Part shown: one piece after another, positions 14,088-60,349 of the stretch
Layout of the letters: the number at the start of each line of letters is the position of its first letter
How positions within the stretch are numbered: the stretch's first letter is position 1
Assembly (NCBI RefSeq): GCF_964355755.1
Contig: NC_092675.1
Span: 24,964,412 to 25,028,411, forward strand
Direction of reading: 5' to 3'
Length of the DNA stretch: 64,000 nt
Origin: Antedon mediterranea
Taxonomy: Eukaryota > Echinodermata > Crinoidea > Comatulida > Antedonidae
Translations under genes and position numbers: made by a program
Notes under the pieces: model-generated
What the model was told of the DNA's origin: nothing
The model's input: only the letters and a program-made list of their open reading frames with translations
The model's database searches: none

Positions 14088-14334
14088 TATATTATATTGT
14101 GATAATTATCACTACTACTGTACATTTCGTGAGGCACTTGTTTTTTTATTCAGAATAAATAGTGTACATTGGTCTCTAATTTTTCACATATTTTGAAAAA
14201 CATTGTTTTAAAATCAATAAATAAAATCAAGTGTTATGGTCAGTGTGTACAGTACTATTATTTATATTACATTTGATTAATATTATTACATATATTTTAT
14301 TATTTTAAAAACATTTCTTTCTTTATCTCTATAG

Positions 14335-22229: not shown

Positions 22230-22371
22230 TTCTATATTTAGAGATAAATAATTTTTTTAAATTTATACTTGTATTTATAATGAATTGGATTGTTTGTAAC
22301 ACAACAAGCCTACACTTACAGCACTATCTAGGCCTACCTCAGCTCAGCCAGGCTAGCTTATTCTAAGCCTA

Positions 22372-23149
22372 TGTTATGCGCGATTTGAACGATTTGCGCA
22401 ATTTGAAATTGCGCAAAAAAATCCTTGCGCAATTTGAAATTGCGCAAAGAATTCTTGCGCAATTTAAAATTGCGCAAGGATTTTTTTGCGCAATTTGAAA
22501 TTGCGCAATCAACTTGCGCAATTTCAAATTGCGCAAGAAAATCTTTGCGCAATTTTAAATTGCGCTGCACAATTTGTAAATTGCGCAAGATAGTTCTTGC
22601 GCAATATGACACCTTTGCGCAATTTGAAAACGAACTGTAAATTTTCCCATACATGGCTAGGCTAGGCCTAGGCAGAGGAGTTTAAAATTTAGTATTTTAT
22701 TATATAAATAAGACCATTTCAATGAAGATAATGTTTAATACTCACTTTTTAAGTTTTTAATATTAGTTTAAGCTAGGCCATGTAACCTAGTCAGTATCAG
22801 TAGTCCAGACCCTAGCTAGGCTAGAGTAGTATAGCCGGCCGCCCGCGCCGCGCCCGCCTGGTGGAACACCACCGCTTCGTTTTCCTTCGTCGGTTCTTCG
22901 ACGGTATGCTAACTTATAACAATATTTGCACTACTAAAATAAGGAAATGCGATATTTATCTTTAATTTTGAATCATTCTTAGAAATTACTATAAAAATAT
23001 GGGTGTGCATGATTTCACAATCTGTCGAAAAACCTTGCGCAATTTGCAGATTACTTGCGCAATTTAATACACATGTTTCAATTCAAATTGCGCAAGGATT
23101 TTTTTTGCGCAATTTCAAATTGCGCAAATCGTTCAAATCGCGCATAACA
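22372..23149. mobile_element. Palindrome-rich transposon, copy 2 (CCTA target duplication), inverted relative to copy 1
   Basis: A 778-bp element has the same TGTTATGCGCG ends as the copy at 13289-14087 and is flanked by CCTA (22368-22371 and 23150-23153). Apart from a 21-bp internal deletion removing one GCGCAATTT unit and a few substitutions in the GC-rich middle, it is almost identical to copy 1 in reverse orientation. It starts 143 bp upstream of the BOLA1 start codon, probably inside a 5' UTR intron. Confidence 0.88.
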
Positions 23150-34513: not shown

Positions 34514-37220
34514 TCATGGAATAGGAAGATCGTCTGCTGTCTGTGCTTCATCTGAGTCTTGTATTACTGCCGCACTTCCATCACATGTCACACAGCAGAT
34601 TTCTTCGTACCCCTCCAGTCCGCAATACAAATGCCGTAATTTAGGGTTGCACAGCAGAGAGCCTGAGACGGGAACGCATTTTTTGCTTTTTACTTCTACA
34701 GGTAAAAAAAGAAGAAACACGTTTAATTATATTGTCAATATCGAATCCAAAAGTCAGAAAAGCTTAGGTGATTCCAAAAATTGTATTGTGATTTAAAAGT
34801 AATTCCAAAAACTGATTGAACTTGTCAATGTTTATGAGCAAGTAAAATTGGTTTAACTTGGTAAAGTATGTGTGTAATATACCCTTTATCTTTAAGTATT
34901 TCCCAGTTTTTAGCATCATTATTATTATTTTGGGAAATAAAGAAACATAATGTTTATCTGTTTTCAGAATATCCTAAACCAATTGTTCATAAATTTGATG
35001 ATTCTCGTATTGTGGAAATTTAAAAACATTTTTCACGTGTTTTCTGAAAGTGGTGACAAAGAGTATATCCTAGAAGATGACACTTATTTGTAAGTGTCAT
35101 CCCGATTAGATGCAATTGAGTGGTGTGTGGGGCTTCATGTATCATGTCTACACTATCAAAATAGTGTGTCAAAAAAGTGTGATATGCCCAAATATGGTAG
35201 TCATATGACGTCATCGTGTCCATATGTGGGCACACCAAGTAAGGTTTGATAGTGTGGACAGATCTTTACTTTGAACAAACATGCTACATACATGCTACAA
35301 ACTACAACCAATTAACGGTACCTACGCTTGCTAGCACATTCACCCATGTCGCATTCACTGCTACTCTCTGGTTTGGTTTCAGGACATTGGTAATCTGAGC
35401 TTCGCATTGAAGGAATTGAGCAGGTTACAGTTCGTGTCATGACTCCAAGACCACAAGAAACTGAACACTAAAGGTAAAGAGCCATGCTTAGTCACAAACA
35501 TGTGTCGTACTAGTTCTAGACACTGAATTGCACGCATTTATAACACTCTGAAATTCCTAATGTCCATTTAGACTATCGTGCGGTATCATGTATTATAACC
35601 AATTCTTTATTAACTCTCACCGTACGTTACAGTATTGTCATAGAAAACAAATAACAAATGGCACAGAACGAAAACAAACAAAAAATAAAATCAAAAAATA
35701 TATATACGTATATATATACATATAGGCCTATAAACACATTAGGCTTGAAACATAAATATAAATATATATATAACCATGCTACAAGACAGGCTACATCATC
35801 CTATATAAAACGAAGGTACCGTCAGCAGAAACGATTTCTATCATGATCTTAACGTTCCTTTTAAAACTGTATTACTACAAAAATGCAAAAACTTGTTATT
35901 GAATAGGCACTATTGTACTAACCTCACTCCATTCTCCCGTCCTCCATACCAATGGGCACGGGTCGTTGTTGCATGCTTGACTATTTGCTGGCATTGGACC
36001 CGGGCATTTTCTATTGTTTACTGTATTTGCCCTCCCCTTGTCAACCTTTATGCAACGCACGCCACGAATTTGGATACCTCCACTACCACATGTTCGAGTA
36101 CAATGTTCCCATGGATCCGTTTGCCATTCGAATCTGTACAATAAACAGTTTAATTATTTTGTTTGTCAAATTATCGAGAGTCATTCTTTTTCAATAAACA
36201 TACAGTACTTTAAAATTGTGGACAAAAACAGTCAATTCCATCGATTTCAACTTAGAACCAAAACTCTACAAGAGAAGCATGTTTTCGTTTTGAACGGAAT
36301 ACACGAGGACGAATGTTAAATCGACCAACAATGCAGTCCTGATAATGAAACAAATGATACTGGGGTGTATACGCCCATTGCCACGTTTCTCTTTTGTATA
36401 AATTACGTCACAAATAACAAATTCACCAGGCATAGACGAATACATATCTATGTATAAGTACTGTATATTACCGTTTTTGTTTACATGGTTGTGTATTACA
36501 GAGTCTTCTGCTATTTATTGGATCATAATCTGCTTTTCCACAAAGTTCATTACCAACAATTTGATTGTCTGATTGTCGTCTGCATTCAAATGACTGGGTT
36601 TGCCATCCTGAAAAAATGAATCAATGCATTCATTTGATGTATTGGTGCATGCAGTTTTACAATAGTTTACATTTGCAATATTTGTTGGTCAACTTCGTCA
36701 TGATAATAAAATCAAGGCTTAGCCATAATTTCACAACAAAATGTACGCGCGTTCTGGAGACACGTTTCTGGTGATAAAGTCTGAATGGCGGATGTAAAAT
36801 AACGTCATAATTACAGCCGAATCAATAGCACTCCCACTACCAGATTTTGTTTGTTTGTAAGTCTAGACCAGACGGATTAAGAAGTTCAATATTCGTATTA
36901 ATGGGTCAAGAACAAATGTTTTTCCGGTTTAGAAGTAAAAATTAATTGAAAGGGGTTGTTGTATTTCGGTCAATATTATACCTCCCATCACCCCCGTATT
37001 TTGAGAATCATACGCCCCTTTTATTTATACGTAGGCGCATAAATTGCAGTTTGAGAAAAGGAACAAACCACTTACCTCCTCCACATTGTTTATTGCATTT
37101 TGACCATCCTACTTCTTGCCACAAGTATAAATCATCACTCCTTGATACTGCTAGGTCTTCAGACGGTAGCACGTATTTGTAAGTGAAATTAGCTCTTCGT
37201 TGATCTTTTGTACTGAATAC
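34514..37220 (-). CDS. ADAMTS C-terminal TSR2-4 and PLAC-like domain
   Basis: Exon 37220-37076 ends the spacer ([13 protein letters not shown]) and opens TSR2 ([16 protein letters not shown]), completed in 36607-36472 ([10 protein letters not shown]). Exon 36133-35923 codes TSR3 ([27 protein letters not shown]) and the start of TSR4 (WRTGEWSE). Exon 35467-35326 completes TSR4 ([16 protein letters not shown]). The last exon (34695-34514) has a PLAC-like Cys pattern ([26 protein letters not shown]) and ends with TGA at 34516-34514. Four TSRs plus PLAC is the layout of ADAMTS2/3/14. The C-terminal Pro-rich extension of the vertebrate proteins is missing; only about 20 acidic residues follow the PLAC region. 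Confidence 0.92.
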
Positions 37221-40200
37221 CTAGAAGAAAAGTATACATAATATTTAGGCCTAATATCGTTGATACACAGTAGAACGCTTCATTTGGGCCACCCCTATCC
37301 AGGATTCTCGTATGAACGTACGAATGAGGGAAAATATTGTGCTTTGACATTACGATCAATCCCTATTCAGGATACACCCCTACCAATGAAGCACTTTGCT
37401 GGATGTCCCAAAGATGTCCCTCTAATAGGAGTTCCACTACTGCTATCCTATTTCATTGTTTTCACATTCATTTAGGGAAAAAATGTTATACTGGCCAAAT
37501 ACGTATTATTTCTTTCTTCCTTATTATTTAAACATTTGTTCGACGTCACGTGTTGCGTCTATGCATAACATAACACACGACGAGCAATGGTTCTACGACC
37601 TTACGCATGTCGCCTTATGGTATCATTTTACAATTATGGATTAAAAGATCGAAAACAAATCTTCTGAAATCCCTGATATCCCAGTCGTCCTTAACTCGTC
37701 ATAATTCACTCATTTGCAGTAATGAATTTATAATGAAATTGTCACGTACCATAAGTAACATGGATTGAGATATAGGTCCGTATGTTACGAGTTTCTCTTC
37801 AAAGCCGTCGTTTACATAGACAAAGTGGGATGCAACGTCCACGAATTCTTTTGACTGCGATTGCTTACCCATACCATTCAAAATCCAGCTTGATTTCTCT
37901 GGATTTTTTAAAGCTAAAAGAAATAAACCCATAGTGTTGAATTGTAACATGTATAAATTGAACATTTAATTGTGTTATGCTGTATTAAATTAATCTATTG
38001 TATATAATACTGGTACTATTCATTACTCTATTATATAATACTATTATTTACCGAAGAAATGTTTTGTATTTGTTACTTCAGTAATTTCAATGTGACGGGC
38101 GCCAGCTGGAATAACTACCACTCGCTGGTATTCTATAAAAAAAAAGCATAATTATTCAATTATTATTCTTCGACGACAGGACAATCAACTGTAATGAAAC
38201 ATCGCAAGGTGTGTGTTAATGTTTCCTGTATTAACTGTACTTGGACAGTTCGTAGTTCAATAACCCTAATAAGTAATTAATAGGTGTGTCTCTGGTTACG
38301 AATACAAAAAAGGAGAAATAGTTTATAAAATGTGTTCTTGTTTCATAGGGACTTGGATTTGATGACAAGTTATTAGGTGTGGTTTTCGTGTATCGGTTTT
38401 TATACAGGGAGAACAGAAAACGATACAAAGGCTTAATAGTTTGTAGGCCTAACACGGTCTTGTCTACGTTGCCTGGATATACACAACTATTTTAACCACT
38501 TTTTCAAAATGAAACTTACTCTTCTTTTTAGATTTCACGTAAGATCCCGTGACAGAACGACATTTAGAATTGTCACCCTCACAGATTCCACATAAATCCT
38601 CTGTCTTCCCCGATTCCAATACACTGTCACAACCAATTTCCTGTAATGAAAACAGAAGCGTTAAGACAATTTTATTTTCAATTACAAACAGAAAATCTAA
38701 TTGCATATCAGGAAGAATATACTTGTGATCCTCCCCTTATGGTGTCGCACCTCTACCCCGAGCTGATGAACGTGTTTGCACATATCCTGTCATCATCGTT
38801 ATCTTATATTGAATAGGGGAGTGTCCGAAATGTCCGCTCATCAAATCCAATTACTTGAGTTCATAACCGCAAGGAAAGTACGTTTGTATGATAACAGTTA
38901 TAATAGTTGACCTACATAACACCTGAGGCTCTTATTCAATTTTAAAACATGTATGATTATGCATAATATCAACAATATTAAAACACTCACAAACTAATTT
39001 GCCTATTACTTTGTTTCGTTAATAGCGACCTTTCGTTTTTCACAACGCGCCACTAGACTATCACAAGGCGCATGCTCATAATCATCTAAGAACGGTAGTT
39101 TCGTCGTTTTGCTTGTCACATCGTGAAACTAGAAATCATTATTTTTTTCTTAAAGTGTATGTCTTTTTCATTAAAATGTTAATGTCCTTTTCCTCAATAT
39201 ATTCTTTGAAAATTTATTATGATTTTACTTTAATTTACACTTATATTTCTAATATATCATCCGTATTTTAATCTATCACTTTTGTTTTTGTGTCGTTTTA
39301 AGGTCAGTGGAGGTTATTGCAAAGTAATAGAAAATAATTCATGTTTTTATAAAGTGTATTAAATCAAATAACAGTACCTGACATTTTCCTTGTACGCAAA
39401 TTCCATTAGGGTTGTCATAGGAACATCTGGTACCATCTATGACGTCATATTCTGATACTACAACATCTCCAGTGTTTTTAGACATGCATGTTAGACGACA
39501 TTGCAGAGAGCCTTTAAGACAATACGAAATTGATTAGAAAATGCAAATGTTTTACATTGCCATCTACAGTATTGTTTATGAGCTTTTAGTTTGAAATTAG
39601 GAAATAAATGAGGTATATTACTTTATATAAAAAAATTGTTAACCAGAGTGTTTTATACAGACTAAAAATAGAAATAATAAAACCATTGAACTTACTGTTA
39701 AGGTTTTCCATTGGTGCCCATGAATGCAGACGATCAAGGTAGCGCCAGTTAGACAGTTTATCTTTACATTGTGCTGCTCTTACGTCAGTCTTCTTTCCTA
39801 AGCAAGGCTAGAAATGGAATTAAGAAGCAAACGAATATTAAATAATAATTCCACATTCCACGTTGTTGTGTTATTAGCCAAACTATGGTAATACTGGTTA
39901 GTACTAACCTCAGCATTACACACTTTGAAATCTGTACTGCTACCGATACAGTCGGCACCTCCATCAGCAGGCCTGTGAAATTATCAATGTAAATTTAATA
40001 ATTTAAGTAATTTAACTGTCTTAATTTAACATTTTAAAGTTATTCAAACCATATTAATTTACTTTACCAATATGATGCTATAATAATATATACTATATAG
40101 GAAAGTCTCTTATACGCATGTGTATAAATATAAATACATCCTTTAGATACAAGTAACACATACTTACGCTGGGTTGTTACATTGTCTTGTTCTGATGGCG

Positions 40201-43200
40201 ACACCGGTTCCACAGGAGAATGAACATTCGCTAAATTCACTATATTCACTCCAACCCCCATTCACAACTGTAGACGTCACTATAGTTGTCGTCTTGACAT
40301 TTCCATTGTTCTTGGGTTTCTTTACACACTCTCCTTGCATACACCACTGAAAATACAATTATAATTATTAATTAATTATATTTATATTTTAAATGTCTGA
40401 TGTAATTGTTAAGCGTTGTGTGCTGAACTCAATTATTATTATCAGTTGTTTTGAAGCCGGATACAGGACCGGTTCTTTGTAAAGTTACAAAAGTAAAACT
40501 AAAATTTAGATAAAATATCACTTAATAGCAACATCAAAAAGCGCAACAAAATTACAATAGGTAAATAAATATAAATTTAGGTTCAGTCACATGTAAAAAA
40601 AAAATTAGAAAATACTACAAAGAATTGATCAAAATGGAAGTCAACAAACATTTGCATGAATAATCATAGACTCAAAGAAAACAAATTGTTGTAGAGAACA
40701 GTTCAAGAGAAAGAAAAACCTGCATTCAAAACAAAAATAGTAGGCCTACTGTACAATTTGTAGACCTACTATTTACAACCAATAAACGAATATTTGCAGA
40801 TTCATAGTAAAGTGAGAAACAAAACACTTTTTAGTGACATTTCGTAAAAGAAAAACATCAAATTATTTCAAAATCAATTTCTTAATCAAATATATTATAA
40901 AAATATCATAAAAACAAAGATCACACAAAAAGTATAGAAAAGTAGAAAGTATAAATATTAGGTCATTAAAAGTTAACTGAAGAATTGCTGGCATTGCACA
41001 TGCGCTCAATTATATATTTTTCAAATCAAGCTTTTTTGCACAAATGAAGTATAAGAGAACGAGATACAAAAACGGTTATTATAAATATTTTAAAAACTCT
41101 ACCTTTCAGTGGGCATATCTGCTGCTTTTAAATCTCGTGTACTTAATGTGTGTACGTTATGTTGTTTGTATGTTTGTTTAGATAAGATAGAAAAGTGTGT
41201 ATGTATGTATCTTGATGTTCAATATGTTTTAGTACTATATAGGGTACTGTACAAATATCACCATTGTGATTTTTCACTATTGATAGAGTCTATCTATCAC
41301 TAAAATCATCATCTATTTGCTGTAACTAAATCATCAACATCATCATCATTCATAATCATCACCATCATAAATAATAGGAAAGCAAACTAGCCTTCATTTA
41401 TGTTGTGTATATAATAATTATTATAAGATAAGTGTGTTTGTCTAACTAAACGAAATACCATTTTACAATAATTTATGTTAATTATTGCCATTGTTATAGA
41501 TACAAATCTAATTGCTGTTATTGTTATTAGTGTTGTTAGCAAAATTAACGTCAGACAGAATTATTAGAAAGATTATAGTTAGTAAACTTATAATACATGA
41601 ATTATGTTGGCAGCTTTACATTAAGTTCAACATGTTTTTCACTTCTTACACCATTTAAAAAAGGAATTCAACTAGGATCAAGTCTGGGGTCAGTTTATTC
41701 AATTACGTAATCTTACAACATTTGGCGGCAGCCTTCGTTATTATTTAACACATTAAATATATATAAACATCTGTTACAATTACAATTTATTACAGTTTAC
41801 AGAAGAAAACAAGTTACAAAACTGCCTGATTCATGACCAAAAAACATGCATTACACCTAGTGCTCGCAGTTTGTTTGAATGACGTCAGGAACGGGACGTA
41901 ACAACACTTATTGGCCAGGTAATATTGAGGTGATGTGGAAAACACCAGTTGATTAGGTTAGTATGTAAGTCATATCACTGACTGTTTTTCTTTTTATATA
42001 GATTATAATAACATTGTTCAGTTTTGGCCAACTTTGATGGAAACTTTCAAGTGATTTTGTTTTGTTTTATTTTAATAAAATACTGATTGTCAAAAGTCTG
42101 ATGGAGAGTTAGGAGAAATTTGGCTCGGCACACGGTTTAGAATTTGCTTTTCTTGCTCAATTCTCTCTTGGACTTCTTTACACATTTTCCGGCCATACAC
42201 CACTGGAATTTGGCATGGAATAAATGTAATGTTAGTATGTTAGTAGAGAACAACAATTAGTAATATTAGTTTCTACAAAAGTATGGCATTAATTACATAA
42301 CATCATATATAATAAAAAATACTTGTATATAAGGTAAGTATGTGTAATTTAAACGTTCGTAAATACTGTATTTCCCTAATATGCATTAAAATGTATTAAA
42401 GTATATACATTTCTTAATATATACAGAAAAAAAAACATTTTTAAAACAAATATGTAATAATGAAAACAAAAGTTGTATTGCAATGGATTGGAAAGCATGA
42501 ACTGAAAGTGTCGAATTCCTAAATCCAATAGTAATCCATTTCCACAACTAAACCTCAGATGTAAACACACAGAACTGGATAGATAAATTCATAAAGATCG
42601 CAATTCAAATCTTTGACCTAAATATTAATCTTAACAATTACGTTTGAAAAATAACCGGAAATAACATTCTCTTCCAAGAACAAGATAGTGTACCATACCA
42701 TTTCTTAGTTACATTTTATATAAAAGTTAAACGAAACAACGTGGAAATATATAAATCGCCGGATGTACATTATTCATGTAGCTGATGGAGTGACACAGGT
42801 GAAGTAGAATATCTAGAAAGAAAATGAAAGTCTTCCCAACTGACTATACAAACCACAAAGTCGAGTACCAGCTTATCAGCTAAAAGCAAAGTACTAAATT
42901 GTTTAGTGAATAGTCTTGAGTTTTAAAGGAGCAAGTTTAAACTGCAACGGAAATTATAAATATTGAAAAACTAAAAACAAGTTCACCAGCATGGACCGAC
43001 ACACAGACAAATCAAACTTTTGATAATTTCTTTTCTTAAAATTCTTCTTCTTCTTCTTATACTTCTTATACTTTGAACTAAGCCAATCCAAAGCTAACAT
43101 AATATTTCCTTTTAATTGATAATCATACAATTTAACATGATGGCTACCGACAAACAGTTTACAGAAAAACCGTTCCACTTTTTTTTAAGTTCTAAGCTTA

Positions 43201-46200
43201 AAACACTGTAAAATATATTGTTGAATATAGTAGGCAACACTGTCAAATATGGAATACATTTGTTGAACCTTAGAGGTAAAACAGTAAACTTGACTTCAAC
43301 CTCAAACACAACATGTCGTATTCACATGTGGATCTAGATAGCCAGTGGCACTTTGGTTTTCCCATTTATAGAATACATCAATGACGTCAACAACATATTC
43401 GCCTTTTTACCTAGTGATATATATTTAGATCTAGAGTACCTTGTGATGTATTTTAAAATATACGTGAGAGACGTTCAAACCGTGACTTCTTAAGCGTGGT
43501 TCCCACTAGCGACGCAACACAAGGACGTAACGCAACGCAAGTGAGTTGACCGATCACAAGCGATGGCTTATTCGCTTGTGATTGCTAACTGTCTATAACT
43601 TCGCTTGTCATTGGTTAAAACGCTTGTGTTGCGTTTACGTCCTTGCGTTACGTTCTAGTGGGAACCAAGCTTTAGATAAATGACCTGTTATTTTTAGTTA
43701 AGCTGCAATATATGTTGAACTACTGTATAAAGAAAATCATAGTTTTCTAATATGTGCAACTGCGCAAACGAAAAATGAAATCAAAACAATGTTAAAAATA
43801 GCCACGTAACAGGTATATTCCTGTCGTCAAAAGCTGGTGAATGGTTATACAAAAGTGGACAAACACCAGTCTTACCATCCCAGAGCCACATGAGCTACCC
43901 GGAAGAGCATAACCTAAATAATATCCATACCACGGGCTGGAACTATGTGAACATATCAGCTGGGAACAAACATCAAAATTGCACTGTAAAAAGTAAAGAA
44001 AACTATTACTTAAATGATGTTATGTTTTTCTTACCGACTTCTTGCGGCAAAATGTTCCATCAAGAGCTGGTCCTTTCTTGGTTTTACAAAAGAATGGATT
44101 TGAGGGTTGGGCACACCACAGTTGTCCACAAGGATCCATGGCACCGAACTAAAGAAATCATTTCAATAAACAATAGAAACAAAAATATTAAATCTATAAC
44201 ATAATAATTAAAGGTGGAATTATAATCACGTCTGGTGAACAATTCACAATTATTTGGAAGTTGTACATAAGTACACATATTAATATAACAATACAAGAAA
44301 ATAACAGTTATTTACCGCGGTACAACGTCCGAATTTATCACCGAAGTCAAATCGGCACTGGTCGTCAAGAGAGAATTTTTCGCCTGGTAATCCTGATGGA
44401 GCTTCGTATTCGGTATTACCACTATCATATGGGTTGTCATTCATACAAGTGTAGGAACTGTAATAAAAACATAGTGTTAATAAACTTACAGGCACGATGA
44501 TTCATGTTAAATTGTCAGATATTCCAACCCTCTTCTATTCCCTCCTAAAACAACTTCCATATAAACACGGAAATTACGCAGTTAGCTGGACACAAAAAAA
44601 GTACATTTTAAAGTGTTTATCTATTTTGTTTATTCAATTGTATTGTATATTAAAACAAAGAAAAAACTGCTGTAGTTTATATTATTAGGCCACAAATTTG
44701 TTTAATGCTATTGATAGTTTTTGAACAAAAAATACGGTATGCCTAGTTTACAAGTTCATTTAATCGAATGACAATGCGTTTTACGATATTAGAAGAAACG
44801 TTATGACCTGGTTTTTTATATATTCACAAAACACTATCATTTGATAGAACAAATCAACGTCCCGACGATTCTAATTGATACATTTTCAACTTTATAAAGT
44901 AAGTATTCGTACTTAAATAGACAAATATACTGAGTTGAATTACGATAAAATATTCTCCAGTCGATTTATCTGTTTATGTAATTAAAGAAATTTAATTTAT
45001 TAAAACAGGCATTGGGGAAACCAGGAAATTGTCATTATTTAGCAATTGTAATGTATGTCTATTGGGAAAACTTAAATACCGTACGCTGACAGCAACGTAG
45101 CTTGACAGGTGTAAGTAAACTGAACAAATTTTATATTTGAACTGACAAATTATTTTAATATTTTGAGGTAAAAATTAATTAGGATAATACTATTTTATCA
45201 GTAAGATAGATTTTGAAAAAAACATGTGAGGCGACACTGACACTCCGTGAATCCCAAGTCCATTCACAGCAAGAACAGGAAATTGAATTAAAACTTGAAC
45301 GTCGAGGTCACAAAATGTCAGTTTGCTCGGATTGGACGAATAAGTCGCGATCAACGATTTCACAACAAATAGATTACTTCGAATCTTAATTCAATAATTC
45401 GCTCAGACTGGGAGAGGTAAATATACGCGACAAGTAAAACATCCCTGTAGTATTATGCATCAAATTGTTTAATTATTTCTTTAACTTCAGATCTTTATCG
45501 GCAGTTGAGTAAAAATGCATAGTTTCAATAAACTATCTTTTCATTGCGTTGAGAGGTAACAATTCCCGACAACTAAACACCCTGTAGAATTATACCTAAA
45601 CGTGTTTAATTAGATCTTCAGATATGCATCTCAATTTGGGTAAAGGGCACGTATTGATTAACCTGGGCCAATTTCATACTACGAATTTTCCAAACACACA
45701 GTGCATAATCATCTGATATCATATTGTCTATAATACTTTATCTCTATCCTTATTGGCTTAATCGCAATTAAGTTAAATAGGAGTTGTATATCAAGGTGGG
45801 CTAGCTAACAGGTGAGTTTATCACTAGGTCAAGTCTCCGTAGATTCGAGGTAACAAATAATTCGCCAGCCAATCAGAGACTGTTGTTAAAATGACAAGTA
45901 TTGCATCTTTCCCACACAGATACAGTATAGCATTATGTTATTTCTCGATCTCTTGCTAAATTACACTTTAAGTTTGTTCCCGTTTGCACCTACCATTACA
46001 GCTCAGCTCAACTAGGGCTAGGGTGTCCCGTGGTTCTCATACATGGGTTCCATTGTTTCTATGACTAATTTGACATGTGGCAACCAAATGCATGGTAATG
46101 TACACTTGTCAGATTAAATGCAAAACGTTACAATGGAGTTTAAATGCCTTACGCCTACCGTACTTTAAACATTTAAAATCTCGACAAATCGTAAGATATT

Positions 46201-49200
46201 TTACTTTTTTACTTCTCTGTTGTTAATGTTAACTATGAAGGATTAATTTGACAGGACATTTCATCCCAACTATGGTTTCAATTATGTGATATCCCACTTA
46301 CCTAAAATATTGTTAAATATGCCAGTAAGCACCGGTCGTTTGTGCCAACTAGTACTATACTAAAGTCTGACCTTCTCGGGTGAATTAAAAGGAGGTTTTA
46401 ACTAGGATACAAATAATAATCAATTTATGGATTGAATTGAAATACTACAAATAAGACAATTTCAATTAAAACAAGGGTCTGAAAAGATATATGCAATATG
46501 CTTTTTTATATTAAATTATTAATCGTCATTAAATTCATATTAAAATTCTTTTCATTCGTAAGAATAAATTAAGAATTGCAAAAAAGCTGCCAAGTCATGC
46601 ATGGGCTAGAAGACACGTATTGATTGATTGGATACACATTTGAAAAGTTATCAAAATGATACGAAATGACGGGTCGATTAGATGAACATGACAGTTACCG
46701 TACCAATTGACAAATACAAGTTTTAGTGCATATACTTCTCATTTTCTGTTTGATTTAGTACCGTATCTATTTGCCAATTATTCGTTTTTTAAAAGGAAGA
46801 CTGACTTTCAACTAGGTTGGAAGTCTCCTGCAATGTTCATTTTTAGCAAGAAAACAGCTGATTTACTACAAGTACAAATCAAGCAGAACTCCTGACATTT
46901 GCATTTCGGTCCCATGCAGAATAAACAATAATGTATCGTGCTCATGCTCGGGGGCTTATATGTTTAAGACTTGTAATACCCATGTCCGCGAGTTTTTAAC
47001 GTTTAACAAAGAAAACATGGTATTAATTTGCATAATAATTAGCATTTCATTGGCAATCTGAAAACAATAACGTCACGTTCTATTCTGTAAACCTTATAAT
47101 ATTGTTTTCTCTTAACACCATACTCAAAACTTTACAATATACAAATTACATTAAGCTACAAACTCGAAGAGTATGGCAATACTTTTTTTCAGTTTAATCT
47201 ATTAATTTGGACGGCTCTTAGTATTGTTGAGACCCAATGTACACAGATTAATAATATCATTCACATTTCTTTTGCCAAGTAATAGGTCTACAGAAAATTA
47301 AGTAACCCAACACCTATAACCAACTAAATGACGACTGAACCAAAAAACAAAACGATAACTACTATTTATTTTAAATTACTAATTTTGATGCTTTTTGTTA
47401 ATTGATAGTTTTTAATTTGACGAGAGTTTATATAGTGTATGTTAAAATTAATTCATTTTAGGATATATTAAAGAAAATATTTGTTGCTAAAAATAAAGTT
47501 TACTGTATTTAACCATTTAATATCTCAGACATATCATTTATCAGATTGAAAGTTAAAGTCATTAAATTTTCTTTTCCTGATGTCGTAAATTTCACTTGAA
47601 GTTTGTGGGGCGGCTGGCGATTGAAAAATAAAATTGTGAATGTCAATTGCGATAAATCATTAGTCAATTCTCTTTCCTCCTCAGATTCCTCATTGATCTT
47701 TATAGCAGTATTAGCTTTATACTGATATAGCCAGGGTATGACCAGCCATTAGGGCCAAAATAGTGATGATGAATAATGAAAAAAAATGACGTTACGACAA
47801 TTTGTCTTTTTGTTTTTCTTTATTTTGACCATATTGGCTGCCCATGTTACAACTCTTAGAAATAATACGAAAGTAGACAACTACCAAAAGGGAAATAATA
47901 ATTTGGTTACATTCATTAAACTGATTAGTCTTAATTCGAAAGAGGCTAAAACAGAACGGAAATGAAAGGAAAGAAATAAAACTATATAATTGGGTAACTT
48001 TGTTCAATAATAGCATTACAGAAGTAATTTTGACAGTCTGCAAAAAAGTGTAAAATTCTAATGATGAATGTGTTTGATTTGTATAGGTATGTTGGTGTAA
48101 GGTAACAACTATTTTAATCCATGTCAAATGCCATTTATTATAGGCTACTTTAAAAACACGGTATGTTAATATAAATTAAGAAATTAAAATTAAAAGTACA
48201 TACAATCATGTTTTTCTGTTGGAAAATATTTCAAAATTAAGTCAAATTAAATTCGTATCCTGTTTGTAGTGTGCTATGACAGGTTGGGATTATTAATTTC
48301 GTTATAAAAATATGTTATTCCTGGGCTGAGGTTCCTTAAAGAGGTGTGTCGGCAATGCGAGATTCAAACGTTACTAATAAAATATGATACAGTATGCCTC
48401 CATTGAAAACCCCTTTCTTAAATCTTTTTACTCAACTACAACGTACCGAAACCTGAAAATACGTAGTTTTGTTCCCAAAAATATATGATAGAAATTAAAT
48501 CTGACTGATTGAGAAGTCAATTAACCGTTATCAACGTAACGTAACTACCGTTATCAACGTAACGTAACTACCGTTATCAACGTAACTACCGTCTGTATTA
48601 TAATTCTATTTCTCTAATATTCCAAAGTTTCTATTGTAAAGTCATGGCACATTGGAGGTATTTGGAAATGTTAGATTACCAAATGCGATATCAGAACGAA
48701 AACCGAATGTAATGTGTGTTTAGATTGACTGATAGTATTTAATTTGAAAGTGAAAATAACTTACTTAAGGTTGCTCTCAAGTTCCTTTTTGCTGCACGAT
48801 GACCAGAAGTATTTGTGGTACGTAGCTGTGACAAGAGGGGCCATGATACTACCTTTGTTTGCATCTTTTTTGCAAGCATTGCCCTGTCCGTCGTGGTCCA
48901 TTCCAAGCCTGAGAAACATTAAGTTAATTATGTTAGGGAAAGAGTATATCATATTTCTTCTATTCTAGACACCTCTATACGGTACCTACTTCATGCTATC
49001 GTAAAAAGGTGATATTTGCACACAATATAAACGTATTTAATGTGAACTTTGTTATGCTAGTTAGGCTTATAGCAACAGTTAGTGTAGATTAGTTTAACTT
49101 CACTTTTTTTTCAGGTTAAAATCTCAGAAGAGAACCTGATAAAGGCCAAGAGACAGAAAAGGTAATACAACTTTTTGTAAGTTAAATAAATGTATATAAT

Positions 49201-52200
49201 ACTAATCAGTGGCGAATTTGTGTTAACATTTTAACGAACAGTAGCGGTGCCGCGTGCCAAAATAGTTCTCGGAAGCGACGCTGACCAGTTAAGTTGTTGG
49301 GTCATTTTAGGCCGCGAAGCTCCTCATTTGCACCGCAATTGTTTGTGTTTAAATAAACTTACGTGTGTCCAACTTCGTGAACAGTTACAAAGCTTGTGAG
49401 CATACCGTCATCTTTCATCAAGCCACAACTTCTCATTGAGCACATGCTACCCAATGGTGCGTATCCTTAGTGTGCAAGCATGCATTTAAAAGAAGTGCGT
49501 GATGGGTTAGTATAGTATATTAAAAACCTAAATTGGAACCAGTTTGGTCCCATCAATGTCTATAAATATCATATTAAGTTCGTTAAGAGATTTGTCACAT
49601 AACATCTCTTTCTGTTGGAGAGTGCGGATTACAGATTCTAATACGTTTTACCATACGAATAACCTTTGAGAAGTATTGGCAATAATGCTTCAGGAGATCA
49701 AACGCCTAAATACAATAACTTTATAGAAATCAACACTCCCATAAATCAACAATTATTCTAATATTATGAATTAATAATAATCTGATAAGAGTTGTATTCA
49801 AATTATAATATAATACCAAAGTCATATTGGCGGATTAGTATACTAATTCGTAAACGTCTGAAAATTTTCAAAAAGGTCAATGACAGCAATTATCCGAGTT
49901 AACATTTTAAATTGTTATCGGATTTTTTTTAAAGTTCAAATTATATATCATTACGTTATAGTGAAAGGTAAGTGATCGTAGTGTTTTAATCTGATCATCT
50001 TCGAGATTTGGGTCTGAATTTTTAGGTCATCTTGATTCTAGATTTTTGGGTGACCTTGGTCTTGAGTCTCGCTTTAAGTTATTTGTGGTCTATCGCACTG
50101 TTAGGTAGTGAGTCTTTGGTCATCTGGGTCCATAGCCTAGCCTAAGTTATTTGGTTTATCGTACTGTTAGGTAGTGAGTCTTTGGTCATCTGGGTCCATA
50201 GCCTAGCCTAAGTTATTTGGTTTATCGTACTGTTAGGTAGTGAGTCCTTGGTCACATAGGGTCCAGAGCCTGGCCTAAGTTATTTGGTATATCTTGCTGG
50301 TCTAGATTGTTTGGCCATTTTTGGTATAGAGTCTGGTCTAATGCGTTTTATAAATTTGTATGAAAGTGGTTTGGTTGGGTGTATTGGTAACATTTTAGTT
50401 GTGTCAGGTTGCATTCTAAATAACTACCCGGATGTGTCTGAAAGTAAGCTGAACAAACTTAATTTATAATCGTTAAGAATCTTGATCTTGTCGTCCAGGT
50501 ACTGATTTTTCATTAGAAAACAATGAAACCTATTTATTTTAACGTACGTTAGTGGGCTTTTAACACGGGTCACAACACTGGTCTATACTATAGATTATAT
50601 TATTAGCCTAAGTGGACGATTCGAAGGCATGCTATAACGGAAAGCGCCAGGCAGGTTAGGCAACGTTTGAGTACTTACAGGTGTTCAGATGAACTTTAAT
50701 CGTAAATTTTTGTTAGATCATAAATTGAAGTTGTTGAAAGAAAGATAGACTGGGGCTTAATACGTAAGTGTTAGAGTGCAATGGTGTTAGAGGTTACTTA
50801 ACATTGAGGAAATTAGCAAGGAATTTGATAAACTTTGACAAAGTCCTTCAGGCAAACTTCATATTTTACTGTTAATCACGAAGTTAATAAGCATGGTGTT
50901 GTCTATCTAGCTTTCTTTCGGTGAGTGGGTTAGTAATGGTTGCATGTTTTAAAGGAAATCCCACTTACACATGGCCCACCTCGTGTGAGGCTACAAATGC
51001 CGACAAAAGGCCTTCATCTCGGGTGAGGGCACAACTTCTGGGACTATTACACATACCCCTCACAGGGCCATATCCTGAAAGCATTCAACGTATTTTGTGT
51101 TAAAACTAGATAAAACACAAACTGACACAACGCCGTATGACATGATCTTATCAACCTTCAAATCGAAATATTGCGTTGTCTTACGTCACAGTTAAAATAT
51201 GTGCAATGTTCTCTTACCTGCTGGTCCGAAGCTGTCACGTGTGAAGAAGAGAGCCAGATCATGATGTTCCTTATTGCTATCGTCTGGGTGGTTTGCTTTG
51301 TAAGCCCATGTGCATACTTTTCTCAAACTGGCGGCTGGTGAACCACTGATCATTCCGCTTGACTGTGGAGACAAAACAATTAAGTTTAAATATTTTCTAT
51401 ATAACATAAGTAATACATGTGTTTTTTAACTTGAGATTCATGGATATTTAATATTTGTTAATGAGCTATTTTAAAAAATGTATATATTACCTGTGACTTG
51501 CTGAGCATTACAATTCTGATGACAGCAACTGTGACATCGATGTTCAATGATTTGTGGTGGTATGCTTCATTTACCTAAACAACAATAATGCAATAGTTCT
51601 ATTTAGTTTTAGTTATGCATTATTTAACATAGAATAATTGCGTAATGTATACAGTATACGGACGGCGGTTCAGACGTGTTCCCATCCTTCATTGCTGGTC
51701 GCTTACCGGCAGATCGGTGCTTGTAATACGGACCATCGTTGTTTTAAATACGAATGAATTTAACTTTATGTCATTACTTTGTACTTATTGTTACTTAAGC
51801 GTGGTTCCCACTAGCGACGCAACACAAGGACGTAACGCAACGCAAGTGAATTGACCAATCGCTTATTCGCTTGTGATTGCTAACTGTCTATAACTTCGCT
51901 TGTCATTGGTTAAAGCGCTTGCGTTGCGTTTACGTCCTTGCGTTACGTTCTAGTGGGAACCAAGCTTTACATGATAATTTCAGACGGCGTTATTTTAAAT
52001 ACTGTTAAACACGTTATGTACATCATAATATCAATAAATATCGGTAAAATATACCATTCATATTCATGGCACACGATACAAACGTAAGTGATTCAATATC
52101 ATTACATATTAACGGTAGGCTTATTACTTAATTGAATCTATTTGTGCTTTGTCACGAAATTTGTAAAAGCCTAATAACATACGGAAAGTGAAAACATACT

Positions 52201-55200
52201 TATTTAAAATGTTCAAACAAAAGTTATCAAAACAATTAGATTATAGACAAAGGTCAATATTTAGAGACTGTAAAGTTCATCATTAGATAGATGAACTCAA
52301 TATCACAACACGGTACAGTATAATTATCTTCTGTGGGTACATGTTCCTTAAGCTCTGTCTACACTGTCTAACTAACTAACACTACTTATGTCTACATTCC
52401 ATTGTACATTAAGACACTTTCCGTTTCGTTTGAGCTGTTTATTCTTACTCCAGTAAGAAACCAATGTAAATATTGTATGGGTAAAGTACTTACGATGTTC
52501 ATCATGGTAAGAAGGTAAGTTGGAATGTTTTCTTCACCGTGGAACTCTACCATTGTGTTGTCAACAGCAAGCATTGTCTCAATGAAGTATTTTCCTCCCG
52601 ATCCACGCTTAACTCTTCCAGTTTCCATTGCAACGTCTTTCACCTTTTTTACAACTTCTTCTGCCGAATCTATATAATCAGTTAGGATCAAATTTATGCT
52701 TCGCCTCACACAAATTAACGTGCTCATGATCAAAACATTAATTCATCGTGCATAGTTTGATCATGACCAACTCTGTGCCAACTAATATTCAATTTGGATT
52801 TTTTTTTTTTATGTAAAGATTTTTTTAAATTAAATTTGAGAGTGATATTTTTAATATTTCATTTGTAATCGTAAAAATACACATTAGGTAATAAATTAAA
52901 AATAGTATTTCAAAAAATGGTTTTAGTTATCTTATCTTAACTACTTTACTTATAGAATCCCCACATCCTATATCTATTTGACTTAAAGGTCCCTAAAGAT
53001 CCATCTCAGCATTAACTGATACTTTTATGTGGTTTTCCTTCCTCATATGTTGAATTTTGAATATTAAATTAAACAATTCAACTGGAGGAACCAAAAGAGG
53101 TGGTTGTAAAAATTGTAAATTAGATGTATATTGTATTGAAGAAAATTATACGATTTGATTCCAATTCAGGCGGTCGGTGTTGGAGTTTGTATTTACGTTT
53201 TAAATAAATCTCAGAAAATTAGTATTTCTAGGTTGATATACTCGTCAGTGGTTTTGTATTAAATGTATTACTCGGCTATAGTGATATTATTCTTACCAAA
53301 ATCACCGAATTTTGAGCCGTCTCTCTTGACAAGAGCACTTCTTTCGTACACGATGTGGGTCTTGCCTGCCTCAGGGTTGTTTGATCCAGTCTCAATTGGC
53401 TCAACTATCTTTTCGTTGCCATCCTTATCTTTAAATATACCTTGCTGAAATAAGAACAATTTAAGGTATTAATTAAATTATTTATATTTTTAAAAGTTTA
53501 TTAGTAATTATGGAGATAAAGTGTAAAAAGTTCTTGTTTTTTTTTGTTTTGATAAAAACTGAATGAGTAAATCTAAAATAAAAATTCTAAAAAACCACAA
53601 ATTGCAATACCACTTACTATAACCGGAACATAAAATGTCCAGTTTCTTTAAATCGTCCACTTTATAGTATGTTTTTGTAACCTGTAATATTTCTTATTAA
53701 CAATCCGGTTACAGTAACAGTTTTTAATACTTCCTTATCCCATCGGATCATCATATAATTCAAATTAAATTGATACTTGGAAGAGTTCGTAACAATGCAT
53801 TTTTAGATTTTATCAGTGGAGTCATTTTATTGAATAATAATATAGATATTTTTGAATGGTGTACTTTATGAGTCACGTGTATTGTTTCCCGTTGCATTCC
53901 CAAGTGTCTATCATCTGACTCAGTGTCGTTCAAGACATGTTTATCTACAGAGGCATATACAACCGAGGAAACGTTCTGTTTTATCGTTTTCATTCAGACC
54001 CTATTCTCTCAACGAGGCTTTTTACTATGGATTGTCCAATCATCGTTACCAACATAAAATCTAGGTCAACATAAATTTTCTTTCAAAGAATTTAATTAAA
54101 AGTTGCACAAAACTATTGTGCTTTCATAATTAAAAGTATGCGTTGTATTGTAGGCCTACTTTTAATCTAGATTTACAGACCTGTACAGTTTCGTATTTAC
54201 ATTTAATAAATGTTTATTTTCTTTTTCTTTAATATTTGGCAATATTTGGAGTTTTTAATCAGGGTACTGGCACTAGGATGTGATTAAAGGTCCTGATCCG
54301 GTTGTAGTAGTTTGTAAAGAAACTTATTTTATATACACTAATGTATTTCGTACTAGGGTTTTTTAATAGTATATATCACATTTGTAAATCAAGTATTTTT
54401 AGTGAAAGAATGGTTCTCTTTGTAAGCCGCTTGCTTGAGAACGACGCGCGCGTATATGTGTACAGTTAATTTTCGGAGATGTAGGCCGCACAGTCATGTA
54501 CGTTTACGATACGTTTACGTGTTTTGCTAAATGCTGCTAAACAGTGCAACTGTCCCTTTAAGTACAAAGTGACGTTGAGGTTGTTGAGGTCAGCTTTTTT
54601 AACCAAGTTATTTCATGAGTAGGACAATGCAAGGTGCTATTCCGTTAATCACAGTAGTCGGTGTGGTGTTGATATAGAACCACTGATTCATACATGAATG
54701 TACAACCTCCCTATAAATTGTGTACAGTCAACAAAGTGCTGTTTTGTTCTATCATTTATCACGAGGCGTAAAATGTGGAAGGTAAACGGATGTGTGGTTA
54801 GCCTCACCGTTTAATAGAATCACCTATTCAAAAATGTGGGACAAGAAAATTATCGTTATCGAAATCCTTTAAATGTCACATGTTGTATAAAACCATTAAT
54901 ACCTTTCATAATTATATAGGCCATGTTTCACTTTGTCTGGCATGGTGGAAATCGCACGCTGTATACAAATACATAAAGTCCGCTAACACAATGACTTCGC
55001 CCCATGGGATGATGTCCGCAAACACCTTACGGACAGATAGAACTTGTTCGCCACAAAACAGTAGCAATTCCCATAGCTAATGCACCCTTCATTGTTCCTT
55101 CCTATTAATGTGTAATTTCCTATGCAATCGATAACGGCTTATAAAGCAATTGAAAAATGTCCATAGAACTGTTTGATGTTTGTAGTCTGGGGATGCAAAC

Positions 55201-58200: not shown

Positions 58201-60349
58201 TTCGAAGCTTTTTATTGAAAATGGTAAACTTTTGTATTACCATTTTCAATTTCCCAACTAAATTTCTTCTATTTTTTTTTAACAGTTTTATACAATTTTA
58301 ACTCTAATTTACACACGCATTAGCTTGTTATCTTTTTATCAAAAAACCTATTTATATTTCTCAAATAAAACTGTTTTTAATCAAATGTCATACTTCTCAT
58401 CTGAAACCTTTTACATTAATGTTTTTATACACTATATCAGTGGGCACATCCTTGCAATTATTGGCCACTTAAAGTGTCAGAAAATATGAAATCTTGTATC
58501 ATTTTTTGTTGTTGTTGTTAATATATCAGTACATTGCTTGTACTGTATGTCAGACGAACACATAGATGTATGTATTTTGCTATCTCTTTACTAAATTCTG
58601 TTAAATCCACCAATGAACAAAGTATAAGCAATACTTACCACTTCATCTCCACACTTAACAATAGCCATATCTTCGCCTTCGTAGCTTTTGCAACGTTCAT
58701 CAACTTTCTCTTCATCGATGGTTCCATCTTCATTCTGTTTTTCAACTATTATGTCACTATTGAATAATGGTGTTGGGTTGTTCAGATCGACTGTCGTTGG
58801 CACTCCACCGGGATTAACGGTCATATATTCACCATCGTCTTCATCAGCCTCTTCTTCGATTCCGGCTTCTCGCTTAATTCGTTTGTATTCTGCCTTTTGA
58901 TTTGAGTATTCTGTATCTGAAAAGTCGTAACTAATGAATTCTCCGTCTTTTGTGGATCTGTAGGGTCGTACTAAGTGGTAGTCTTCAAGGCGATTTATTA
59001 AGTCAACTGAAAAAGAAGAACAAATGATTTATTATTAATCTAAATTACCAGTAGTTTTTTTTTAAATAGTACGATAAGTTATCATTAATTCTGTACATTC
59101 ACTAATAGTTTTAGATCTGAGAAAATATATCTCTTGTACTGAGGTTAATTTTTGGCAGATTATTCGTATACTGTACTTTTTATTGGTGTTTAGGAATTAT
59201 TTTTGCTCACACCTAAGTTGTACAGCAATGTAAGTAGTATTTTCAATCCATAAAATTGAGTATAAAAAATAGATACAATGCAAAATAGTTTTAAGTTCAT
59301 CATACTTTTAATCGTAAGCATTTATGTAATCGATTAAAACAAGACATCATACCACATGCCGGATTTATATTTTTAATTCAATTTCGTGTAGGTTACAAAC
59401 AAACTCTGTATTGGCTGGTATTCAATTTTAGCTTTAACGATGTATTGCACCATCGTGAAATTGTCTATAGGTTCAACCCATGTTGTACATTAAACCTGGA
59501 TCGTAGATACACAGAAAAAACCATTATCATTTTTGAGAAACTACTATGAAAAATAAAAAAGTAATGTTTTTAATAATACCATGTCTCTTGTGTAGATTCC
59601 TGGGCAACTCTACTTTTCCATAAACCTGTATAAACAATAATAATGCAATAACTATTTTATGAACACTTTTATAGTGTTATCTCATTTTTTATTTTACGAG
59701 ATGCTGTTTATACCTTCTGAAGAAAAAAATGTTGGTGCCATATTCGGTATTCAATTTCAAAGAAAGCCTCCTGCGAACAGCCACCACAAAGCCAAAGGGA
59801 TACATCAATTCGCTATGGAACTTTGCCATTGAACGAAATGTACAGTTTATCATAATATGAATGAGGGTTTTCTTTAGTCAGCTTCAGGTACATTTAGAAG
59901 TAAGAAAAGTAAATCAATATGCTTATTTATTTGTTTAGTAGAAAAGTACGCACCGGTGATAAGCTATTATAAATTGGTGTTATTGTAATATAAAAAAAAA
60001 ACATTTGACAAACGAAATGCCAAAATTAAAGTTGTATAAAACGTTACGATTATGGTTCATTGATAATTTACCGGGGTTAAAGAAAAACTTCATTTTGTCA
60101 TTGTTGGCCTTGTCGTAGTCAATCCCAAGAACTCACGCATCATTGCAATCATAGGGGAGGAAGTTGGATCGATCGTCTTCAATTATAGTACTGTGTAAAT
60201 GATACCACAATATAGGCCTATCTATCTACTATATCAACATAATAAATTTATCTATTGAATATATACGCAGGAAAAAAAGATATAAACCTTACCTGAACTG
60301 TGATTGCCACACATACAAACAGTAATCCAAACATGATTCTGTTCGCCAT
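34514..60349 (-). CDS. ADAMTS2/3/14-like procollagen N-proteinase with duplicated alternative exons
   Basis: This is a secreted zinc metalloprotease of the family that removes the N-propeptides of fibrillar collagens. Exons, 5' to 3': 60349-60293, an unresolved exon 2 ending at 60072, 59006-58639, 53444-53297, 52669-52494, 51574-51491, 51362-51218, 51074-50969 or 49465-49363, 48908-48765, 44457-44316, 44148-44035 or 43983-43876, 40346-40168 (or terminal 42202-42137), 39972-39909, 39807-39696, 39511-39378, 38640-38520, 38132-38052, 37913-37750, 37220-37076, 36607-36472, 36133-35923, 35467-35326, 34695-34514. All junctions after exon 2 are GT-AG and phase-consistent; the long form is about 1,085 residues (human ADAMTS2: 1,211). 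Domain order is signal peptide, propeptide, RVKR furin site, metalloprotease, disintegrin-like, TSR1, Cys-rich, spacer, TSR2-4 and PLAC. The segments [21 protein letters not shown] and [16 protein letters not shown] match the 2/3/14 clade closely. Confidence 0.93.
35144..35266. mobile_element. MITE family B, copy 5, in the last ADAMTS intron
   Basis: The ends ATGTCTACACTATCAAAATA and TTTGATAGTGTGGACAGAT are inverted, and the core GATATGCCCAAATATGGTAG matches the family. Confidence 0.8.
37750..40346 (-). CDS. ADAMTS TSR1, Cys-rich and spacer exons
   Basis: Exon 40346-40168 carries the end of the disintegrin-like domain and the first thrombospondin repeat ([28 protein letters not shown]). Exons 39972-39909, 39807-39696 and 39511-39378 supply [56 protein letters not shown]. 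Exon 38640-38520 closes the Cys-rich region with [20 protein letters not shown]. The spacer begins in 38132-38052 ([16 protein letters not shown]) and continues in 37913-37750 ([10 protein letters not shown], then [14 protein letters not shown]). The Cys spacing follows ADAMTS2. Between TSR1 and the metalloprotease half lies the 1.8-kb intron that contains the short terminal exon's poly(A) signal. Confidence 0.92.
41332..41372. repeat. Interrupted ATC microsatellite
   Basis: ATCATCAACATCATCATCAT is followed by further CAT/ATC units. It lies in the ADAMTS intron after the short terminal exon. No other structure is seen there. Confidence 0.7.
42137..42202 (-). CDS. ADAMTS alternative terminal exon ending the protein after the disintegrin-like domain
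   Basis: After the acceptor AAATTCCAG the exon codes [20 protein letters not shown], one more residue, and TAA at 42139-42137. It is clearly related to the start of the normal next exon ([12 protein letters not shown] at 40346). AATAAA lies on this strand at 42071-42066, 66 bp past the stop. The product would be a short protease without thrombospondin repeats, spacer or PLAC and with a basic C-terminus. The related start, stop and polyadenylation signal support a real terminal exon over a decayed duplicate, but transcript evidence is absent. Confidence 0.72.
   Translation of the reverse strand, partial: WCMAGKCVKKSKRELSKKSKF
43491..43675. mobile_element. MITE family A copy in an ADAMTS intron
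   Basis: The ends AAGCGTGGTTCCCACTAG and CTAGTGGGAACCAAGCTT are complete inverted repeats and the interior is about 90% like the copy at 9641-9821. It lies between the second disintegrin exon and the short terminal exon. Confidence 0.85.
43876..44457 (-). CDS. ADAMTS disintegrin-like exons: common exon plus two alternatives
   Basis: Exon 10 (44457-44316) codes the start of the domain ([12 protein letters not shown], then [18 protein letters not shown]). Two phase-0 exons follow. The first (44148-44035, 38 codons) is canonical: DPCGQLWC, then [18 protein letters not shown]. The second (43983-43876, 36 codons) starts [15 protein letters not shown] and ends [12 protein letters not shown]; it aligns with the first along its length. 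It has four Cys like the first, but lacks the one in FFCK and gains one at its start. The intron between them is only 51 bp. Confidence 0.88.
44458..48764. other. 4.3-kb ADAMTS intron (metalloprotease to disintegrin)
   Basis: No exon or transposon with clear ends was found. Two related stretches at about 45412-45530 and 45552-45655 (GAGAGGTAA, then CCTGTAG, then TTTAATTA, then CAGATCTT or ATCTTCAGAT) look like a decayed direct duplication. A 23-bp tandem repeat is at 48524-48591, outside exon sequence. Confidence 0.5.
48524..48591. repeat. Tandem repeat, 23-bp unit CCGTTATCAACGTAACGTAA + CTA, about three copies
   Basis: Two complete units and a third lacking ACGTA follow each other directly, about 170 bp downstream (in gene direction) of the exon coding LGMDHDG. 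Confidence 0.85.
48765..53444 (-). CDS. ADAMTS exons 4-9: end of propeptide and catalytic metalloprotease domain
   Basis: Exon 4 ends the propeptide ([18 protein letters not shown]). Exon 5 has the furin site GRVKR|GS and starts the catalytic domain with [19 protein letters not shown], then YLLTMMNI. Exons 6 and 7 continue with [20 protein letters not shown] and [19 protein letters not shown]. The next exon, present in two versions, codes the region from GY.P through HEVGH. Exon 9 (48908-48765) completes the zinc site as LGMDHDG, so the motif reads HExxHxxGxxHD. It also has the Met-turn GSIMAPLV and ends with [10 protein letters not shown]. Every residue expected for zinc binding and catalysis is present in both versions. 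Confidence 0.92.
49363..49465 (-). CDS. ADAMTS alternative active-site exon, version 2 (HE-2)
   Basis: The 103-bp exon has the same entry and exit phases as version 1. It codes 35 residues with [20 protein letters not shown] and VHEVGHT, keeping both Cys, the catalytic Glu and both His. The donor is GTAAGT; the acceptor CACACTAAG is weaker than that of version 1. Joining version 1 to version 2 gives a TAG after six codons, so only one can be used per mRNA. Confidence 0.87.
50035..50290. repeat. Tandem repeat of 66-bp units between the two active-site exons
   Basis: About three units start TTAGGTAGTGAGTCTTTGGT at 50101, 50167 and 50233, preceded by a diverged partial unit. Each contains CATCTGGGTCCATAGCCTAG. 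The array lies wholly in the intron separating HE-1 from HE-2. Confidence 0.9.
50969..51074 (-). CDS. ADAMTS alternative active-site exon, version 1 (HE-1)
   Basis: The 106-bp exon enters in phase 1 and leaves in phase 2. It codes 36 residues with [20 protein letters not shown] and the zinc-binding SHEVGHV. The acceptor is GCTTTCAG and the donor GTAAGT. It aligns residue for residue with the exon at 49363-49465, apart from one extra codon. Its likeness to vertebrate ADAMTS2 (TGMC..PRSC and HETGHV) is at least as good as that of version 2. Confidence 0.88.
51795..51970. mobile_element. MITE family A copy upstream of ADAMTS exon 6
   Basis: The ends AAGCGTGGTTCCCACTAG and CTAGTGGGAACCAAGCTT are complete; about 12 bp around CACAAGCGATGG in the interior are deleted. 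It is otherwise nearly identical to the 43491 copy. Confidence 0.85.
53445..58638. other. 5.2-kb ADAMTS intron within the propeptide region
   Basis: No exon is supported. The longest frame (56719-57075, plus strand) has no recognisable domain. A poly-G run lies at 57653-57664 and a small hairpin (ATTGAAAATGGTAA and its complement) at 58214-58250. The sequence is otherwise AT-rich and featureless to me. Confidence 0.5.
58639..60349 (-). CDS. ADAMTS exons 1-3: signal peptide and propeptide
   Basis: Exon 1 starts at ATG 60349 and codes a short signal peptide ([19 protein letters not shown]) ending in phase 0 at CAG|GTAAGG (60293). Exon 3 (59006-58639) enters in phase 1 and codes propeptide sequence with EDYHLVRP and [10 protein letters not shown], an acidic stretch, and a paired-Cys segment ([15 protein letters not shown]). 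An exon 2 ending at AACCCCG|GTAAAT (60072) carries [17 protein letters not shown] in the right frame to join exon 3. Upstream, however, that frame has a TGA, and the frame open from exon 1 is shifted by one base. So the exon 2 start is unresolved, and either an indel or an unrecognised exon is involved. Confidence 0.7.

Follow-up and report, generated by a model that had tools for sequence, protein, structure and literature searches.

Two intact, phase-matched exons for the HExxH segment of an ADAMTS gene in the crinoid Antedon mediterranea, probably used as mutually exclusive alternatives

A long ADAMTS gene lies on the minus strand of C6:24964412-25028411 (NC_092675.1) in the genome of Antedon mediterranea, which comprises 354 Mb in 18 contigs. 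This stretch of 64,000 nucleotides, analysed as a whole, is called the window here. Open reading frames and Pfam matches give the gene a propeptide-like exon, a reprolysin domain, a disintegrin-like/cysteine-rich region, TSP1, CR_3 and spacer-like modules, more TSP1 repeats and a PLAC-like end. The disintegrin-like/cysteine-rich, TSP1 and CR_3 modules were recognized by PF17771, PF00090, PF19030 and PF19236, all above their cut-offs; the matches to PF01562 (propeptide), PF05986 (spacer) and PF08686 (PLAC) are below the Pfam cut-offs. The catalytic domain is assembled, in order, from an exon ending at 52494, exons 51574-51491 and 51362-51218, one of two alternative exons called A and B, and exon 48908-48765. 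The features, in window positions, are as follows.

58639..59006, minus strand: propeptide-like exon (Pep_M12B_propep, E 0.0049, below the Pfam cut-off)
52494..52592, minus strand: start of the catalytic domain, the 3' part of an exon with RVKR just upstream (read from the sequence)
51491..51574, minus strand: catalytic exon common to both forms (aligned to ADAMTS1 and ADAMTS4)
51218..51362, minus strand: upstream catalytic exon, common, 145 bp, ending in phase 1 (..TRDSFGPA G, then gtaaga; frame reading)
50969..51074, minus strand: exon A, 106 bp, acceptor ctttcag, donor gtaagtg (splicing frames, paralog profile)
49506..49512, minus strand: TACTAAC, candidate branch point for exon B; the branch A lies 42 nt away from that exon (motif)
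49363..49465, minus strand: exon B, 103 bp, acceptor cactaag, donor gtaagtt (splicing frames, paralog profile)
48765..48908, minus strand: downstream exon, common, 144 bp, with the third zinc His and the Met-turn (sequence, frame reading)
44316..44457, minus strand: next exon, start of the disintegrin-like/cysteine-rich region (PF17771 once joined to the following open frame)
34517..44315, minus strand: remaining pieces of the gene, namely cysteine-rich, TSP1, CR_3, spacer-like, TSP1 repeats and PLAC-like end (open frames and Pfam; exon ends approximate)

The RVKR just upstream of the catalytic domain is presumably a furin-like site. The catalytic and disintegrin-like sequence may resemble the procollagen N-proteinases ADAMTS2/3/14 most; ADAMTS2/3/14 were absent among the solved-structure matches listed for the spliced catalytic domain. 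The common exon at 51218..51362 has counterparts at five of 12 paralogous loci, with identities of 31-46%. Elsewhere in the window there is a 701-nt inverted repeat (13389-14089 and 22370-23070), 99% complementary with its arms 8.3 kb apart, which may be a mobile element or have arisen by inverted duplication in recent times.

The first-pass annotation of this DNA had described two exons about 1.5 kb apart that code for one and the same segment, with identical intron phases, two Cys and an intact HEVGH in each, and lengths of 106 and 103 bp, neither divisible by three. Re-reading of the sequence confirmed all of this. Each exon continues from 51218 in phase 1 and leads into 48908 in phase 2, and the two are separated by an intron of 1503 nt, which contains a 66-bp tandem repeat of 3.3 copies at 50075..50293. 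All three introns are GT-AG, with the donors gtaaga, gtaagt and gtaagt. Counting shared split codons, A and B encode peptides of 36 and 35 residues, a difference of one codon. Both Cys and HEVGH are kept in each, and identity is 54% across 35 columns; 14 of the 33 codons compared differ in the residue encoded, in addition to the one-residue deletion. With either exon spliced in, PF01421 (Reprolysin) is above its cut-off, at 62.6 bits with A and 64.9 bits with B. The HExxHxxGxxHD motif reads HEVGHVLGMDHD and HEVGHTLGMDHD in the two spliced forms, and the Met-turn is SIMAP.

When the exons were joined in silico, mRNAs with A only or B only had an open frame across the next two exons. The statement that inclusion of both gives an in-frame TAG and omission of both a frame shift was borne out: A followed by B reads CAT GTG ATA CGC ACC ATT GGG TAG, ending after 89 codons when counted from the first base of exon 51362-51218; with both left out, a stop comes after 101 codons from the same point. 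Since the TAG lies in the middle of the catalytic domain and the other error shifts the frame, mis-spliced mRNAs would enter nonsense-mediated decay (NMD).

The likeness of A and B is beyond chance, because each found the other in a search of the genome and none of 20,000 neutral copies, described below, kept the observed identity. In the genome search each exon with the downstream exon served as query (84 and 83 amino acids), and the other exon was matched with E values of 1.2e-5 and 2.3e-5. A third copy was not found in the 64-kb window, where the next-best match to the paralog profile, on the opposite strand, reached 11.0 bits (E 0.11), and the other four catalytic exons had no convincing second copy within the window. 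The DNA flanking A and B shared short matches alone, with E values of 0.3 or worse.

Over 33 codons, pS between A and B was 0.825 and pN 0.317, third-position identity was 0.33, and pN was lower than pS in 2000 of 2000 bootstraps. Synonymous sites between the two exons are saturated. Because a pN below pS in this pair alone could reflect constraint on A only, each exon was also compared with 12 paralogous exons from the same genome. The mean pN to these was 0.374 for A and 0.401 for B, and 0.382 among the paralogs themselves (66 pairs). B is thus about as far from the paralogs as they are from one another, which indicates that it evolved at about the pace of the corresponding exons of other genes. 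Of 20,000 copies of A changed neutrally to an equal nucleotide divergence, 18% were free of stops, 0.035% retained both Cys and HExxH, and none retained the observed amino-acid identity. Against a profile built from the 12 paralogs, A scored 56.5 bits, inside the leave-one-out range of 48.5-64.7, and B scored 44.7 bits, below the lowest paralog (48.5). B's score was reached by none of the 1832 neutral copies scored (2000 were made), the best of which had 25.7 bits. Long-lasting constraint has therefore acted on both A and B, and B does not appear to be simply decaying.

In a tree A and B grouped together with support 88/81, and in 86% of 200 bootstrap trees; the branch leading to B was the longer (1.56 vs. 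1.02 for A). Duplication within the gene is likely, with some uncertainty because the tree comes from an alignment of 36 columns and none of its branches is starred. At 10 of 12 other ADAMTS loci of the same genome, judged by eye, an acceptor in the corresponding position leads into the segment; at C7:20480616 and C7:21165009 no upstream intron was seen at that position. The exon thus appears to be an old unit of the family, copied once more here. In the stretches covered, each of the 12 other ADAMTS loci had one whole copy of the HExxH exon and no second one; coverage included the downstream exon in 11 of 12, an upstream exon in five of 12, and part of the introns. Three further matches (C4:2459011, C6:2539567 and C7:9445673) were left out of the 12, as their matches began only in the later part of the segment.

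The paralogous loci have features of their own. Contig C6 holds most of the ADAMTS matches in the genome. One paralog (L009, 3011-2901; C6:27014546) reads AQEIGH at the HExxH position; its first zinc His is gone, and it is probably without protease activity. Another (2340-2230 of its locus; C6:25050411), about 22 kb past the high end of the window and in the same orientation, lacks the second Cys of the segment and has NLQENTV where most paralogs have Cys. At C9:24.684 Mb (minus strand, ~2780-2530 of the locus) the end of the exon, ..SAFTIAHELGHV with its donor gtaagtatt, is repeated head to tail several times. These repeats sit in the following intron, cover the last third of the exon and form a row of donor-like sites. 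Two tandem ADAMTS genes, with their own catalytic exons each, lie within 9.5 kb at C6:5147000-5156500 (L017). The match at C6:5148340 was rejected as an extra exon copy, being part of a tandem gene that is complete, flanking exons included.

Two structural routes to exclusive splicing, incompatible splice sites and a short intron, were considered and set aside. The donors gtaaga and gtaagt do not point to incompatibility between U12 and U2 splice sites, and the intron between A and B, at its length given above, is not too short to be spliced. Long-range pairing among the three introns did not rise above shuffled sequences (38 of 60, 38 of 60 and 16 of 25 shuffles were equal or better) in a comparison that has little power with a single genome.

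The acceptor of B scored lowest of 27 (-0.5) and was equalled or beaten by 36% of the 3136 minus-strand AGs in the window, and that of A ranked 19th of 27. Weak acceptors are common in regulated exons, and likewise in dying ones. The sequence 3' of the TACTAAC, toward B, is CACTTCTTTT, and no further AG occurs in the 60 nt that precede B's own. Among the window's 6229 AGs on the two strands, seven, B's included, follow a TACTAAC by 18-60 nt and have no AG in between; this is a count for a motif that was picked after it had been seen upstream of B. The choice between the exons might be made by proteins that control how two weak acceptors compete, with the reading frame as a backstop. In the portions of PMC5740500 seen, human mutually exclusive exons are given three routes, of which NMD after a frame shift is one, and it is a recognized safeguard of such exons.

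The reading that best fits these observations, and one we hold to be quite probable, is mutually exclusive splicing of A and B to give two catalytic isoforms, with frame shift and NMD as the backstop. A single HExxH exon would have been duplicated inside the ADAMTS gene, and selection would have retained both copies, each as an alternative exon; a functional mRNA would contain A or B, never both and never neither. Two intact, homologous exons of matching phase, the consequences of joining or skipping them and the constraint on each are observed. The splicing of both, a regulated choice between them, removal of errors by NMD and a difference in function between the isoforms are inferred. The proposal of mutually exclusive HExxH exons made in the first-pass annotation thus stands as the reading best supported by anatomy and selection as seen in the DNA.

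Several findings count against this reading: B has the weakest acceptor of the set, its profile score is under those of all 12 paralogs, its branch in the tree is the longer, the introns showed no pairing above shuffles, and the tree is short of columns and starred branches. Together with the one-residue deletion, the first three would suit a B that was formerly used and selected and is now a silent relic, skipped in splicing, with A the sole working exon. Such a relic would hardly be expected to have an open frame, two Cys and HExxH intact, a consensus donor (gtaagt), a candidate branch point and an AG-free zone. As the pN of B to the paralogs is like that of other genes, any loss of B must be recent. 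We consider a relic unlikely.

It is also improbable, in our estimate, that both exons are used and that one isoform is inactive or dominant-negative, binding without cutting. The residues flanking HEVGH do differ between A and B, and the paralog with AQEIGH suggests that inactive ADAMTS probably exist in this genome. Against this, HExxH is present in A as in B, and the third His and Met-turn are common to both forms. Still less credence can be given to B, or A, serving mainly as a poison exon, so that joining of both, with its in-frame TAG, would set the level of enzyme through NMD rather than make two enzymes; a poison exon needs no kept HExxH, Cys pair or constraint at the protein level, and B has all three. 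That A and B are the remains of tandem genes or an assembly error is the least credible explanation, for while the genome does have tandem ADAMTS genes (e.g., the two in 9.5 kb at C6:5.15 Mb), a single exon is clearly doubled in the window, and the divergence of A and B, with synonymous sites saturated, is too high for an assembly artefact.

Mutually exclusive exons are known from other families. According to the parts of PMC3228551 consulted, neighbours that share length, frame and homology made up 90 of 16,180 exons and were found in 6 of 1705 fly X genes. The mutually exclusive reading is supported because, by these figures, few ordinary exons match a neighbour in all three. Like the exons of Dscam, dynein and myosin heavy chain, as those are described in sections of PMC3228551 and PMC5740500, A and B are adjacent, homologous, of similar length and of the same phases, and their joint inclusion breaks the frame. 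What sets Antedon apart is that the piece to be swapped would be the catalytic zinc helix of a protease. The pair probably joins these tandem exons as a member of the same, already known class, and its location is unusual.

For the ADAMTS family, the first-pass annotation knew of no member with a switchable active site. That was too strong, for passages of PMC549037 report that in human ADAMTS6 the exon right after the catalytic site is alternative, and that ADAMTS10 is predicted to be so. Beside the catalytic site both genes have exons of a consensus and a non-consensus type, the missing partners having been predicted by the authors. The likeness lies in alternative versions of an exon at an ADAMTS active site; the difference, as far as those passages go, is that theirs is the exon following the catalytic site, whereas in Antedon it is the HExxH exon itself. 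A 2021 review of ADAMTS regulation covers, in the text seen, splicing of ADAMTS2, 4, 6, 7, 9, 13 and 17 (PMC8275829). Those ADAMTS forms too are altered by splicing, but the cases detailed in that text (ADAMTS4, ADAMTS17) change the spacer domain, not the active site. Alternative HExxH exons in an ADAMTS were not found among the matches listed in a search of open-access titles and the starts of abstracts on ADAMTS, proteases and mutually exclusive exons, and the term "ADAMTS" is absent from the main text, as seen, of PMC5740500 and PMC9741552.

The exon encodes an edge strand, a disulphide bulge and the zinc helix that carries HExxH. In alignments to ADAMTS1 and ADAMTS4 it starts directly after the S2'-loop stretch, which is CGVSTCDT in ADAMTS4 and short in the Antedon gene, and ends just past HExxH. 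The match to ADAMTS1 is 118.7 bits with A and 119.1 bits with B. The two exons differ in GYGPVR vs. GYAPLG, in the bulge that the two cysteines enclose, and around the zinc motif, in AS-HEVGH-V vs. TV-HEVGH-T. We place the S1' loop in the downstream common exon. The ADAMTS13 residue Arg193 presumably falls just before the stretch encoded by A or B, and Asp217 inside it. These two are, with Asp252, the gatekeepers of ADAMTS13 in the portions of PMC6706451 consulted. Both that latency and the S2' loop of ADAMTS4 (PMC9620172), in so far as the extracts seen describe them, involve the same part of the catalytic domain in setting the opening of the cleft; they are conformational switches of one protein, whereas in Antedon the sequence itself would be exchanged.

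Since A and B differ in these places, an altered subsite preference or latency is plausible, and the two forms may differ in substrate. The specificity of ADAMTS proteases is generally attributed to their ancillary domains. As a tentative extension, doubtful at present, exclusive splicing of the HExxH exon may be tightly regulated by tissue or stage to give two active sites, with an origin separate from that of the ADAMTS6/10 exon; splicing would then set the specificity of the protease and not its location alone. If the two-isoform reading is true, the only difference between the proteins would be the active-site exon, a natural experiment that separates the cleft from the exosites, and mutually exclusive splicing would be able to swap the zinc helix of a metzincin with the fold kept.
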